Below, one piece after another: positions 50,353-56,970 of a stretch of DNA of 64,000 nt. How positions within the stretch are numbered: position 1 is the stretch's first letter; each line of letters opens with the position of its first letter. This DNA comes from Jatrophihabitans cynanchi (GTDB taxonomy: Bacteria; Actinomycetota; Actinomycetes; Mycobacteriales; Jatrophihabitantaceae). The position numbers were made by a program, and so were the translations under genes. A model generated the notes under the pieces. The model was given only the letters and a program-made list of their open reading frames with translations. It was not told where the DNA came from and did no database searches. Location of the stretch: contig NZ_CP097463.1 of assembly GCF_027247405.1 (NCBI RefSeq), forward strand, positions 3,472,001 through 3,536,000. The letters run 5' to 3'.

Positions 50353-51057
50353 TCAACGAGGTGGGCGCAGCGCGGCGAAGGGGTCGGTGACGGTGAGCTC
50401 ACGCTCGCAGAAGCGGTAGATCGTTGCGGGCCGCCCGCCGGACTGGCCGGAGGGCGCGGTCCGCTCGGTGGGTTCGATGACGCGGCGGCGGGTCAGCACC
50501 CGGTTCAGGTTCGTCGCGTCGATCTCGTACCCGAGCGCTGCGCTGTAGATGCGGCGCAGGGCACCGATCGTGAACTCGCGCGGCGCCAGCGCGAAACCGA
50601 GGTTCGTGTAGGACAGCTTCGCGCGCAACCGCTCGACCGCGGCCGCGATGAAGTGGCGGTGATCGAACGCCGTGGTCGGCAGTGCGTCGACCGGGTGCCA
50701 GCGCGTGTCGGCCGGCAGGTGCGGCTCGACGTCGTCCGGGACCAGTCCGAGGTACGCGGTTGCCAGCACCCGTCCGCGCGGATCGCGGCGCACTGCACTG
50801 TGCGTCGCGAGCTGCTCCAGGTGGGCCAGTTCGCGCACGTCGACCTTCGCGGCCAGATGCCGATGGATAGCCGCGCGCAGCCGCTCGGTGCGCGCGACGC
50901 CACCGCCGGGCAGTGCCCAGCGCCCTGCCTGCGGCGCCAGCCCGCGCCGCCACAGCAGCACGCCGAGCCGTCCCTCGCGCACCGACAGGACGACGGCGAG
51001 CACCTCGTGCGGATAGCTCGGGAACGGCACCGAGGTAGGTCTCACACCGGTGGCCAC
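50353..51057 (-). CDS. nrtR: NrtR-type Nudix-like regulator of NAD metabolism
   Basis: A 234-residue protein with a Nudix-fold domain ([35 protein letters not shown]) and a C-terminal winged helix ([36 protein letters not shown]), the NrtR arrangement. The Nudix box lacks the REXXEE acidic residues ([11 protein letters not shown] instead), as expected for a non-catalytic regulator that senses ADP-ribose or a related NAD metabolite. I choose the GTG at 51057. It is divergent from nadA, with a palindrome between, so it is the probable nadA repressor. Confidence 0.9.
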
Positions 51058-51089
51058 GAGGGCCGATGGTAGCCTGTCCGACGAGTTAG

Positions 51090-51102
51090 CGACTATAAGT
51101 CG
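51090..51102. promoter_or_regulatory. NrtR operator in the nadA promoter
   Basis: CGACTATAAGTCG is a 5-base perfect inverted repeat around ATA, 22 bases before the nadA ATG. It lies in the gap between nrtR and nadA and resembles NrtR boxes of related actinobacteria. Confidence 0.75.
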
Positions 51103-51124
51103 AAAACCGGAAAGGGGCGCCGTT

Positions 51125-52099
51125 ATGTCGACCACGCAGACCCGAACCTGGCAGGACGAGGTGCGGGCACTGGCCGCCGAACGGGACGCGGTCATCCTCG
51201 CGCACAACTACCAGGAGCCGGCGATCCAGGACGTCGCCGACCACGTGGGCGACTCGCTCGCCCTGTCCCGGCTCGCGGCCACGACGGACGCGAGCACGAT
51301 CGTCTTCTGCGGCGTGCACTTCATGGCCGAGACGGCGAAGCTGCTGAGCCCCGACAAGACCGTGCTCATCCCCACAGCGCGTGCCGGGTGCTCGCTGGCC
51401 GACACCATCGACGTCGAGCAACTGCGCGCCTGGAAGCGTGAGCACCCGGGCGCGGCGGTCGTCGCGTACGTCAACACCAGCGCGGCAGTGAAGGCCGAGT
51501 CCGACGTCTGCTGCACCTCCTCGAACGCCGTGGACGTGGTGAACTCGATCCCGGCGGACCGCCCGATCCTGTTCCTGCCCGACCAGTTCCTCGGCGACCA
51601 CGTCCGTCGCCAGACCGGCCGCGACAACATCGAGGTGTGGCTCGGCGAATGCCACGTGCACGCGGCGATCAGCCCGACCGACCTCATCGACACCGTGCGC
51701 GCGCACCCGGACGCCGAGCTGTTCATCCACCCGGAGTGCGGCTGCGCCTCGTCGGCGATCTGGCTGGCCGGCCAGGGCGAACTGCCCGAGGAACGCGTCA
51801 AGATCCTGTCTACCGGCGGGATGCTCGACGCCGCGCGCCGCACGAGTGCGAGTACCACCCTCGTCGCGACCGAGATCGGCATGCTGCACCAGCTCGGCAA
51901 GGCGAACACCCGCACGTCGTTCCTGCCGGTGAACCCCAAGGCGTCGTGCCGGTACATGAAGATGATCACGCCGGAGCTCTTGGTGCGTTGCCTGCGCGAG
52001 GGACGCGACGAGGTGAGCATCCCGCAGGACGTGGCGGCTGCCGCCCGGCGCGCCGTGCAGCGGATGATCACGCTCGGCAGCCCGGGCGGCGGCGAGTAG
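51125..52099 (+). CDS. nadA: Quinolinate synthase NadA
   Basis: A 324-residue quinolinate synthase, which condenses iminoaspartate with dihydroxyacetone phosphate in de novo NAD synthesis and holds a 4Fe-4S cluster. Family marks are [39 protein letters not shown], the Cys in [31 protein letters not shown] and [14 protein letters not shown], giving the three cluster cysteines. ATG at 51125 with GGGGCG-type leader. nadB and nadC do not follow, so the rest of the pathway must be elsewhere. Confidence 0.96.
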
Positions 52100-53665: not shown

Positions 53666-54964
53666 TCAGCCTCTGGCCGGCGTAGGCGAGTCGCAGAAGC
53701 GCACCTGGTCGCGGCCGCTGGCCTTGGCCGCGTACAGGGCCACGTCCGCAGTGGCGATCAGTTCATCGAGCGTTCGCGCGGCCTCGGAGGCGATGGCGAC
53801 ACCGATTGACGCGGTCAGCCGCATCCCGCCGCCGAAGGCCAGCCCGCGGATGCACGAGGTCAGGCGCAGCGCGATGCCCAGCGCGCCCGCCCGGTCGATG
53901 CCCGGCAGCAGCACGACGAACTCCTCGCCGCCGTACCGCCCGACGGCGTCGTGGCCGCGCAGATCGGTACGCAGGCACTCGGCGACCGCCCGCAACGCCT
54001 CGTCCCCGGCCAGGTGGCCGTGGGTGTCGTTCACCTGTTTGAAGTGGTCCAGGTCGATGAGCAGCAACGAGCTGGGCTCGCCGTTGTGCGAGCTGCGGGC
54101 CAGGTGCCTGTCGGCCAGCCGGCGCCACGCCCCGGCGGTGAGCAGCCCGGTCTTGTCGTCGGTCCCCGCCTCGACCTCGAGCACGCTGACCATCGCGCTG
54201 CGCTGCAGCACGCCGAGCAGGATGAGCAGAGCGGGTGTCAGCCAGGCGGTGTGCCGGATCACGTCGGCGGTGAGCGCGCCGACGATCAGCGAGGCGATCT
54301 CGAACGCGGCGACGTCCCGGTTGGGCAGCACGCTGCGCAGCGTCGGCGGCCGGACGACCAGCATGATGCCGGCCGTGAGCAGGCACAGGCTCAGCACCCC
54401 GGACGTGAGCACCGCCGCAACGGTAGCGGCAGCGCGAACCGGCTCATTGGCCGGAGCGAGGCCGCCGAGCGCGTGGTAGGTGGCGGACGCGGCGAGGATG
54501 CCGAGGGTAGCGGTGGTGGCGCTGAAGACTTCGCGGTACGGGCGCAGACCCTGGCCGCGACCGGTGCGGAGCACGACGTAGGCCGAGCCGAGCGCGGTGA
54601 GCAGGCCGGCGTACCCGGCGGGCACCAGCAGAGCGGCAGCCACGGTCCACACCGACAGGTAATCGGCGCGCACCCGGTCGCCGCCGAGCCAGTGCCGCAG
54701 CCGGGAGAAGTAGGCGACCGATTCGGTGAAAACTACGGCGAGCCCGGCCAGCGTCGCCAGCCGGGCAAGGTCGGTGCTGGTTGGGTCTGCAGCCGTCAGT
54801 GCGACGACCAGAATGATCACGGCCGCCAGCTCCACGGCCAGCATGAAGCGCCGGCCGGAAGCATCGAGCGACCACAAATCCCAGTCGCGCACGCGCAGGA
54901 TCGGGCGGCGTGTGGCGTCGTCGCCTGGTGCCACCGTTCCTCCCGATGCAGATGCCGTGGCCAT
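53666..54964 (-). CDS. Membrane diguanylate cyclase (GGDEF)
   Basis: A protein of about 432 residues. The first 250 hold seven or so transmembrane helices (VELAAVIILVVALTAAD onward), a MASE-like sensor. The C-terminal 170 form a GGDEF domain with LLIDLDHFKQVNDTHGHLAGDEAL and the active site RYGGEEFVVLLP. The motif RGHD, five residues before GGEEF, is a product-inhibition I-site. It would make cyclic-di-GMP from GTP at the membrane. I start at the ATG at 54964; an ATG 23 codons upstream is in frame. The divergent side carries the Trp-leader element. Confidence 0.93.
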   Translation of the reverse strand: MATASASGGTVAPGDDATRRPILRVRDWDLWSLDASGRRFMLAVELAAVIILVVALTAADPTSTDLARLATLAGLAVVFTESVAYFSRLRHWLGGDRVRADYLSVWTVAAALLVPAGYAGLLTALGSAYVVLRTGRGQGLRPYREVFSATTATLGILAASATYHALGGLAPANEPVRAAATVAAVLTSGVLSLCLLTAGIMLVVRPPTLRSVLPNRDVAAFEIASLIVGALTADVIRHTAWLTPALLILLGVLQRSAMVSVLEVEAGTDDKTGLLTAGAWRRLADRHLARSSHNGEPSSLLLIDLDHFKQVNDTHGHLAGDEALRAVAECLRTDLRGHDAVGRYGGEEFVVLLPGIDRAGALGIALRLTSCIRGLAFGGGMRLTASIGVAIASEAARTLDELIATADVALYAAKASGRDQVRFCDSPTPARG

Positions 54965-55126
54965 TTGTATGCATATGCCGTTTTCGAACAGCGACCCCGA
55001 GCGTGAGCACACGGCCGCTTTACTCGTGTTCATCGACCATAAAGAACCGGAGCTGAGTTCGGCGGCTGCTCCAGGATTCACGGCAGGAACCTGACCCGCC
55101 GCGTCCCGCTACGAGGAGGTGTCCTG

Positions 55127-55150
55127 ATGCAGCACTGGAACTGGGGCTGA
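55127..55150 (+). CDS. Putative Trp-codon leader peptide (MQHWNWG)
   Basis: ATG CAG CAC TGG AAC TGG GGC TGA: seven codons with two Trp and one His, preceded by AGGAGGT with a 6-base spacer, a near-ideal ribosome-binding site. It is followed at once by two strong hairpins whose arms can pair alternatively, the layout of a transcription attenuator sensing charged tRNA-Trp. Unlike known trp leaders, no tryptophan gene lies downstream on this strand. Too short for ordinary gene prediction. Confidence 0.65.
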   Translation: MQHWNWG

Positions 55151-55160
55151 GCCGCCGCCG

Positions 55161-55198
55161 CCCGCCGCTGTCCCGGCCGTATGCCGGGACGGCGGGGG
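55161..55198 (+). promoter_or_regulatory. First hairpin of a putative Trp attenuator
   Basis: GTCCCGGC at 55170-55177 pairs with GCCGGGAC at 55183-55190 around the loop CGTAT; CCGCC and GGCGG extend the stem with a bulge. The 3' arm GGACGGCGGGGGC can alternatively pair with GCGCCC..CCGTCC in the 5' arm of the following hairpin, as an antiterminator would. Confidence 0.6.
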
Positions 55199-55211
55199 CA
55201 CACCCGTCATG

Positions 55212-55246
55212 AGCCGCGCCCATCCGTCCATGGGACGGGCGCGGCT
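55212..55246 (+). terminator. Terminator hairpin of the putative Trp attenuator
   Basis: AGCCGCGCCC at 55212-55221 pairs perfectly with GGGCGCGGCT at 55237-55246, with a further GTCC/GGAC pairing inside, followed by TTTGC. The 10-base-pair GC stem starts 62 bases after the leader stop codon. Confidence 0.65.
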
Positions 55247-55263
55247 TTGCTGTGCCTGAAAGC

Positions 55264-56847
55264 TCAGCTGTGCTTGATCAGCTGCCACGGCGTCTGTCCG
55301 GGATCGGAGACGACCAGGCCGGGTACCTCGCCCTGGGTGAACCATTTGGCCTGGTAGCCGATCCCGTCGTACAGCACCCGCGCACCCGCGCGGTAGGTGG
55401 TCGTCGCCGACCACGCGGGATACGTACCGGCCGAGAGCGTCGGCGTCGGTTGCGGATGCTCGCCCGGCAGCACCGGCCCGATCAGCGTCCACGGCGTCTC
55501 GAAGGCGCTCGTGACCGGGGTGTCGGGCTGATCGCCCTGGGTCCACCACTTGGCCTGATACACGTTGTGCCGCCACACGATCTTGGTGCCCTGTGCGTAA
55601 GGCAGCGTCGGGTTCCAGATCGCGTAGGGCGAGGTCGCCGGGTCGTCCACGATCTGGGTGGCGACGGGCGCCGGAGCACCGGAGTCGACCGCGGTCGAGG
55701 GTGCGATCGCGGGCGTGACCTGCCCGGCGGTGAACGGCACGAAGATGCGGGTAAACGCGGCTGTCTTCTGGTCGATTCCGCTGCAGTTGACCGACACGAT
55801 CGAGACGTTGGCGTAGTTCGGGCCGCACGCCTGGTCGCGGTTCACCGACCACATCGACAGGCGCCGCAGGTGGTGCGTCTGCGCGAACACGAGCAGCGAC
55901 TTGGCATCCTCGAGCCCGAACCGCTCGGCGGCGACGTCGTTCTGCCCGATCATCGGCGTCGCGCCCACCCGCTGCCACGCCTGGGCGCTGCTCAGGTGTA
56001 CCCCGGCCACCCGGTAGGCGTCGACCAGCTGGCCGGCGACCGCGGTGAGCGCGGAACGGTTCGCGCCGGCCAGGCTCTGGCCGTCCAGTGAGTTGCCGTA
56101 GTCCATCGTCATCGCGTTCACGCCGGCGAGCTCGACCTTGGCCCGCAGCATCGCGGCGAGGACGGCCTGCCCGCTGGCGGTCAGTCCGGACGGCGTGACC
56201 GGCAGGGTGAGCCAGACGGCGAGGCGGTGGCCGGAGCGCTCACGAGCTAGCTGCAGCGAGCGGATCGCCTCGGCGCGGCGGGTGGACACGTCGCTGCTGG
56301 AGGCGTCGGTGCCCTCGATGTCCAGGTCGACGGCGTTGACGGAGTATCGGTCCACGACCGCTCGATAAGCGGCGGCGAGGTTGCCGGTGTCCGCGCAGCC
56401 GATCGCGAGTTCGGAGTTCGCGGCGCCGCCGAAGGAGACCATGACCTGTCCGCCGCGCTGTCGCAGCCGGGCGATGCGGCGGTCGAGGTCCATCGTGCTC
56501 GCGGCCTGGTCCAGCGAGTAGCTCGCGCCCCAGCTCGGCTCGCAGGCGTTCGCCTTCGAGCTCACCACGAAGCCCAGTACGAGGTTGGCCGATATCGCCT
56601 TGGACGCGTCCTCGAAGGCGTACTGCGGCGTCGCGGTCACGTCCACGTACGGCATGAACGAGGACACCGGCGCGGCGACCCGGGCGCTGTGCGAGGCAGT
56701 GCGGAAACCGACTACGGCTGCCGAGCCGGCGACCAGTAGCACGATGAAGCCGGCGATGCGCAGCCAGGACAGCCGGCGCACCGCATCAGGTTGTGCTGAG
56801 CCGCCTTCGCGGCGCGCGGCCGCGTAGGCGCGCTCCTCAGGTGTCAC
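55264..56847 (-). CDS. Membrane-anchored GH18 chitinase with two chitin-binding modules
   Basis: A 527-residue protein from the GTG at 56847. An N-terminal helix (IAGFIVLLVAGSAAVVGF) anchors or exports it. Residues about 65-370 are a GH18-type barrel: FMPYVDVTATPQY, VMVSFGG, the catalytic DLDIEGTD, MTMDYGNSLDGQ and LSMWSVNRDQACG. Two C-terminal type-3 chitin-binding modules (CBM5/12-like) follow: YAIWNPTLPYAQGTKIVWRH and YPAWSATTTYRAGARVLY, both with YQAKWWTQG/YQAKWFTQG cores. It would hydrolyse chitin or a related N-acetylglucosamine polymer outside the cell. Divergent from the GT2 gene, 123 bases apart. Confidence 0.9.
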   Translation of the reverse strand: MTPEERAYAAARREGGSAQPDAVRRLSWLRIAGFIVLLVAGSAAVVGFRTASHSARVAAPVSSFMPYVDVTATPQYAFEDASKAISANLVLGFVVSSKANACEPSWGASYSLDQAASTMDLDRRIARLRQRGGQVMVSFGGAANSELAIGCADTGNLAAAYRAVVDRYSVNAVDLDIEGTDASSSDVSTRRAEAIRSLQLARERSGHRLAVWLTLPVTPSGLTASGQAVLAAMLRAKVELAGVNAMTMDYGNSLDGQSLAGANRSALTAVAGQLVDAYRVAGVHLSSAQAWQRVGATPMIGQNDVAAERFGLEDAKSLLVFAQTHHLRRLSMWSVNRDQACGPNYANVSIVSVNCSGIDQKTAAFTRIFVPFTAGQVTPAIAPSTAVDSGAPAPVATQIVDDPATSPYAIWNPTLPYAQGTKIVWRHNVYQAKWWTQGDQPDTPVTSAFETPWTLIGPVLPGEHPQPTPTLSAGTYPAWSATTTYRAGARVLYDGIGYQAKWFTQGEVPGLVVSDPGQTPWQLIKHS

Positions 56848-56970
56848 GCCAGCACTGCTCTCGGGTTCGCCAGATCGATTCGCTGCACGACCTACGAATC
56901 GGCGGACGGCTGCCGAAGTTAAGGGTTCGAGACCGCCTGAGGCGGCCAGCACCCGTGGGGAGCGCACTAT

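Follow-up and report, generated by a model that had tools for sequence, protein, structure and literature searches.

A seven-codon reading frame with two Trp codons, followed by two GC-rich hairpins and by no gene on its own strand, lies in an intergenic region of Jatrophihabitans cynanchi (contig NZ_CP097463.1) and raises the question of what so small a gene could be for. The original prediction, made on the window, that is, the whole 64,000-nucleotide stretch of DNA analysed here, was a tryptophan attenuator that had either decayed or become an independent leader peptide. Its description of the parts was confirmed: a strong ribosome-binding site, the frame of MQHWNWG (ATG CAG CAC TGG AAC TGG GGC TGA), both hairpins and a chitinase-type downstream neighbour on the opposite strand are in place, and the T-run is present but weak, being just TTT (Table 1). 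Its function we read differently, and we give this reading about an even chance: MQHWNWG would be a stand-alone peptide gene within a family of miniature genes that lie divergent from a distinct membrane diguanylate cyclase, and its peptide would be sensed by that cyclase.

Table 1 Features around the MQHWNWG micro-ORF, in window coordinates.
Feature	Position	Strand	Remark
Membrane diguanylate cyclase, divergent partner	53666..54964	-	start codon picked by alignment
Divergent intergenic stretch	54965..55114	.	position only
Shine-Dalgarno core GGAGG (in GAGGAGGTG)	55115..55119	+	7 nt 5' of ATG
Micro-ORF MQHWNWG, single copy, cyclase-linked divergent family member (very probable)	55127..55150	+	exact frame
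Hairpin 1, GC-rich, no T-run	about 55160-55199	+	-39.0 kcal/mol, z -3.1
Hairpin 2 with short TTT	55211..55249 (hairpin about 55211-55247)	.	-29.2 kcal/mol, z -3.7
GH18-like protein with CBM5/12 (chitinase type), convergent neighbour	55264..56949	-	

Attenuators of trp genes, whose leader peptides include the trans-acting trpL of rhizobia, share with this locus a few-codon peptide with Trp codons, led by a Shine-Dalgarno (SD) sequence and followed by hairpins, but here neither a trp gene nor a related gene lies downstream on the same strand, a run of Trp codons is not conserved in the family and no workable switch was found. The inner arms of the hairpins can pair with each other, as had been claimed, yet this 2:3 pairing reaches -19.4 to -22.4 kcal/mol, depending on the stretch taken, and by folding energy (not kinetics) is weaker than the -29.2 kcal/mol terminator hairpin with which it would have to compete; the terminator also still formed when the 5' arm was blocked. 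Hairpin 1, which gave no sign of a switch in the pairing comparison, probably belongs to the 3' end of the micro-ORF transcript, and hairpin 2, which is able to fold on the opposite strand as well, is probably a terminator common to the micro-ORF and the convergent chitinase-type gene. On the other side, the divergent intergenic stretch is a putative promoter region that should serve both the cyclase and the micro-ORF. Elsewhere in the genome, no SD-led Trp-rich leader lies between trpE and the preceding biosynthetic gene, which on our own reading of the sequence we take to be hisI, and the 1.5-kb flanks of the class II DAHP synthase locus contain no SD-led ORF of ≤40 residues with two Trp. 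Neither the window nor the 10 further loci searched matched an Rfam family. A decayed trp leader is contradicted by the relatives, whose micro-ORFs of the same type, beside a diguanylate cyclase, have a single Trp or lack it altogether (as in MSDRDF, MNGRED and MRNRES). What survives of the proposed independent leader peptide is a micro-ORF that stands alone, equipped with signals for translation and without a gene to regulate; tryptophan attenuation does not.

Being a single copy, with no close DNA relative at ≤2 mismatches among 297 further genomes from the order, the ORF could be taken for a chance product of GC-rich intergenic sequence. Plasmid records gave 17 weak matches to the region, none covering 80%, and the four inspected showed a GC-rich likeness only and no micro-ORF. 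Under a strict rule (GGAGG or AGGAG, ATG or GTG, 6-8 residues), however, both strands of the window contain exactly one match, MQHWNWG, and random genome, 400 kb with both strands scanned (800 kb of strand), yields just six, none with Trp. The pattern SD-ATG-x-x-Trp-x-Trp occurs three times in the 4.5 Mb genome, once in the window and twice in a paralogous array, and its reversed-pattern control does not occur. The MQHWNWG ORF thus exceeds chance expectation; moreover, its place, strand, length and motif all fit its cyclase clade (see below). We regard a chance origin as next to negligible and MQHWNWG as very probably a genuine member of a micro-ORF gene family; the evidence of coding constraint comes from that family, and the single window copy is supported by motif and position.

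In many actinomycetes, the region divergently upstream of relatives of the window cyclase contains between 1 and 16 SD-led micro-ORFs, most of which have 6-8 codons. A first scan, which required Trp, found a micro-ORF at 24 of 26 cyclase loci (window included, L026 doubtful), and one of the two loci without a match, L030, offers only 110 nt upstream. A profile of the membrane domain alone detected relatives in 37 of the 150 genomes searched in the order and in 58 of the 296 searched in the class, with the own genome counted both times. Two larger sets were compared with controls. The 56-locus set came from a scan with two short conserved motifs, which favours close relatives, and includes Amycolatopsis, Kutzneria, Solihabitans, Haloechinothrix, Actinophytocola, Thermocrispum, Kibdelosporangium, Pseudonocardia and others; the 88-locus set came from the order profile search and comprises 88 of the 109 matches listed, the 21 left out being mostly orthologues in one genus. 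By the strict rule, the divergent upstream kilobase held a micro-ORF in 44/56 loci, compared with 0/56 control strands and 6/800 random 1-kb pieces. A looser rule (5-10 residues, weaker SD allowed) raised this to 54/56 and gave 62/88 in the second set, against 3/56 and 11/88 control strands and 94/800 random windows.

Rows of near-identical micro-ORFs occurred in 14/56 and 30/88 loci and on 0/56 and 1/88 control strands; by the looser-rule count, the sole control-strand row lies in L043. They were also present in 18 of the 29 loci of the class search and absent from both strands of 400 kb of random genome, and a detector blind to Trp found no row on the other strand in 53, 56 and 29 loci. Thirty GGDEF control loci were taken as the GGDEF domain plus 1.5 kb on either side, which cut off part of the upstream region of longer proteins; rows were present in two of their three membrane-type loci, the third being the window with its single copy, and one chance pair (MRAPPR/MRARPR) appeared in another locus. 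The rows seen comprise MNNWSW and variants (five), MNVWDW and variants (five), MTVVNWS (seven), MNSNSW (seven), MSNHGW (three) and MLDNWRWP and variants (two to three), and the Trp-blind detector added MRSRDW/MSRDW (16), MSSRDF (10), MxNRDN (12, Thermocrispum) and MRDTTWS (13, one of them MRDTTWR); MNGRED is an example of a single copy. Thermocrispum municipale and Haloechinothrix halophila have rows of 12 and 6 copies, respectively. Two more sets are found in the host genome, each next to a paralogous cyclase: MFAHVEWS with MQQHVEWS, and three copies of MSNWGWGK. As far as sequence comparison goes, the family spans several families of the class, its genes occurring in one copy or in near-identical rows with an SD for each.

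At 26 of the 88 cyclase loci of the order search, no micro-ORF was found by the looser rule; six of these bear MRGQNW with a more distant SD and two a repeat ORF. L102 and L106 have, instead of micro-ORFs, one longer ORF with six and eight PTDW cores, respectively, resembling a multi-copy pheromone precursor. In L052 and L208, which are probably one contig, a micro-ORF MQNQGWNQGW is followed by a second ORF of seven NQGW cores, and the cores RDNNWT and RDTNW each occur twice inside one ORF. Because cores thus repeat inside a single ORF, the product would be a peptide rather than an RNA.

The rows point in the same direction. Across 40 rows (208 units), the first, second and third codon positions showed 89, 61 and 245 differences over 1093 sites each, and 231 codon differences were synonymous versus 79 nonsynonymous, an excess that is inflated by the choice of rows at ≥60% peptide likeness. 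Starts interchange within rows (ATG 162, GTG 43, TTG 3), as do stops (TGA 170, TAA 20, TAG 18). Peptides are near-identical within a row and different between loci, and the footprints of single-copy orthologues retain SD and micro-ORF while the flanks vary. A device acting at the level of translation or RNA, in which ribosomes on the micro-ORFs would sense the supply of amino acids or formyl-Met and set transcription, would account for the SD, short ORF, hairpins and two Trp codons of the window and for the co-directional gene that follows the row at one own-genome locus. In an earlier, overlapping row set, though, the units were 92% identical in the ORF and 46% over the 24 nt past the stop (ungapped); with no gene downstream on the plus strand in the window, Trp far from universal in the family, and the weak 2:3 pairing and lack of Rfam matches noted above, we consider it very unlikely.

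As to the partner of the micro-ORF, sequence evidence points to the diguanylate cyclase on its divergent side. The chitinase was considered and rejected: behind four family orthologues of it (56-62% identity, one of them, L020, with in-frame stops and another, L023, with only 514 nt behind) there is no SD-led two-Trp ORF of ≤25 residues, such ORFs being found elsewhere, once each in L020 and L021. Further upstream in the window, the plus-strand gene at 51050-52099 is, judged from its sequence, presumably the quinolinate synthase NadA.

In a maximum-likelihood tree of 61 membrane domains, the window cyclase falls within a clade of seven (support 100/99), whose other members lie beside the peptides MQHLEWQ, MLHAEWP, MFAHVEWS/MQQHVEWS, MRLHTEWL, MNKAWES and MSRAWDW; an inner group of five, without the MQHLEWQ and MLHAEWP loci, has support 98/94. 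Five of the seven, the window included, have the peptide motif H-x-(E/N)-W-x, which MNKAWES and MSRAWDW lack. The Trp-Trp frame, whose conservation the attenuator reading had called for, is therefore not what the clade preserves: the first Trp of MQHWNWG occupies a variable position and only the second is constant among the H-x-(E/N)-W-x peptides. Micro-ORFs do recur in relatives, placed divergently from the cyclase. Over 100 loci, peptide identity correlated with membrane-domain identity (r 0.71, reached in 0/999 permutations). The input was 111 loci, from which L229 was dropped (stop codon) and 10 without a pickable peptide were left out; some loci entered twice, from both the 56- and the 88-locus sets, and the automatic pick of a single micro-ORF was sometimes wrong, L079 for instance being given MPLAPHG though MFDRDF is present. 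Ancestry is shared, and the correlation is no proof of contact.

The cyclase consists of an N-terminal membrane domain of about six long helices followed by a GGDEF domain (PF00990, 4.2e-35), which reads GGEEF in the alignment, so that its active-site motif is intact. Only GGDEF was significant in Pfam, where the protein had no sequence match to an S-component family. Structure models had a mean pLDDT of 87.8 for the full cyclase and 87.5 for the membrane domain modelled alone. The top 18 structural neighbours of this domain were all ECF S-component-type or related metal-uptake subunits, with Z 13.1 to 7.8; the next had Z 6.6, and from there down came mixed helical proteins that we took as chance matches. 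Foldseek gave E about 0.2 and a probability of up to 0.97 for the domain, its first three matches being unrelated proteins, and a structural search with the full cyclase returned GGDEF proteins only among the 50 matches listed. On the predicted model, the domain thus appears to adopt the six-helix S-component fold of ECF transporters (RibU, ThiT, BioY, NikM/CbiM), differing from these in its fusion to GGDEF and in the missing Pfam match. Likeness of fold shows no function, and helical bundles may reach Z 13 by chance. S-components bind small ligands within the membrane, and a sensor role for the cyclase is therefore plausible. In the numbering used here, W106, R144 and R90 of the cyclase are invariant and E222 is nearly so.

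Among the remaining neighbours, clustered from ORFs of ≥110 residues up to 3 kb on the micro-ORF side at the 56 loci, the largest group is an efflux-type MFS gene (MFS_1 6.1e-22; similarity to TIGR00900 and EntS below cut-off), present on the far side of the micro-ORFs in 37/56 loci, with L229 in the other orientation. By tblastn, counting similarity anywhere in the fetched flank with queries supplied by five of the 56 loci, it was found in 44/56 loci, 17/29 of the class search and 48/88 of the order search, while the 400 kb of background had none; the other 40/88 lack it in their fetched flanks, and so does the window. At L199, an ArsP_1-type permease stands instead of the MFS gene beside two copies of MNAHAWG, and at L203 (Kutzneria), whose micro-ORF is MSNRDS, the far-side gene reads by eye as what is presumably a tyrosine recombinase. 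An EAL gene was rejected as a general partner: it lies beside one own-genome row and otherwise only at L052 and L208 (28-29% identity), probably one place.

Linkage, orientation, coding constraint in rows and orthologues, multi-copy rows, co-divergence with the membrane domain and the frequent nearby MFS gene are thus established as features of sequence. Whether MQHWNWG serves its cyclase as an external ligand or signal is, in our estimate, evenly balanced. On this model, the single micro-ORF of the window would be expressed and its peptide made with formyl-Met first; the peptide would be exported, possibly by the MFS pump at many loci, and would bind the ECF-S-like membrane domain of the adjoining cyclase and alter its c-di-GMP output, each cyclase having its own private peptide signal. 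The window has no MFS gene, and export there would therefore use another pump, or none.

Two other readings are the main rivals. The peptides could remain intracellular and serve the cyclase (or the MFS or EAL protein) as a small ligand or a subunit, adjusting its activity by dose and conveying no message between cells. They have no signal sequence, their linkage to the cyclase is tighter than that to the MFS gene, and at the third own-genome paralogue (L273, 14613-16121) the three MSNWGWGK copies lie between the membrane cyclase and a co-directional GGDEF-EAL phosphodiesterase gene, all of which would suit this reading; an efflux-type gene so often nearby and a membrane domain of receptor-like fold better fit an external ligand, and we hold the intracellular role to be possible but improbable.

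Alternatively, the micro-ORFs could be minimal RiPP precursors whose modifying enzyme is encoded elsewhere. Their nearest counterpart in print that we found, with a different partner and motif, is the biarylitide pentapeptide precursor gene bytA, which is among the smallest known protein-coding genes (PMC13417212) and whose P450 partner makes biarylitides. Equally tiny size, the multiple copies that some strains carry (as many as six in Lysinibacillus; PMC13417212) and an MFS pump often close by speak for the comparison. Against it, no P450 adjoins any of the three own-genome loci (P450 matches in the genome number three, at 1.34, 2.11 and 4.35 Mb, the closest about 72 kb from a paralogous row), neighbour clusters other than MFS span ≤9 of the 56 loci each, some peptides lack an aromatic residue (MNGRED, MRNRES), and the motifs and lengths differ, with seven residues here and 6-8 usual in place of the five of biarylitide precursors. 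We judge a RiPP origin unlikely.

The external-ligand reading, by comparison, has its closest models in the peptide signalling cassettes of Gram-positive bacteria, which join exporter, peptide and receptor. Here too a peptide gene, under coding constraint in the family, adjoins a membrane protein with a predicted ligand-binding-type fold, often with a pump, and the peptide diverges with the receptor-like domain. The genes differ in having 6-8 codons, no leader and often rows, and the protein presumed to be the receptor is a diguanylate cyclase whose membrane domain is ECF-S-like, in place of a histidine kinase or RRNPP protein. Pheromone precursors of the yeast alpha-factor type contain repeated copies of a short core, and here likewise one short core is repeated, as micro-ORF rows or in one ORF; the present genes are bacterial and have no recognised secretion signal or processing sites. 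Trp attenuators, for their part, are set apart from the family by its rows of up to 16 copies and its linkage to a diguanylate cyclase.

Searches of open-access literature, including ones with the exact peptide strings, turned up no description of the micro-ORFs. The gene family is probably unannotated because genes of 6-8 codons escape gene finders. We see an even chance that it represents a new class of peptide signalling in Actinomycetes, with unprocessed peptides, mostly of 6-8 residues, encoded by genes of the smallest kind in rows of ≤16, each private to the cyclase that would read it through an ECF-S-like pocket, and with c-di-GMP reporting the signal. The input signals of diguanylate cyclases are mostly unknown, and in actinomycetes c-di-GMP controls development and antibiotic production. 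If the peptides are indeed ligands, they would be natural inputs for diguanylate cyclases, and one genome may run several such channels at once, three in the host genome.

The intergenic stretches themselves offer two minor observations. Sites resembling a BldD-type operator, with ≤2 mismatches to the motif, occurred in 29/56 stretches (L187-L242) versus 63/280 background pieces, composition not being controlled; that such operator-like sites seem commoner than in the background is suggestive only, the best site of the window has three mismatches, and true sites would close a c-di-GMP loop. At L098, L100, L101 and L105, micro-ORFs of the type MAGKEQ/MAGRDQ/MRGKEQ with a weaker SD were seen by eye beside the MFS gene and the cyclase, and in the aligned L098, L100 and L101 the sequence before the micro-ORF is strongly conserved.
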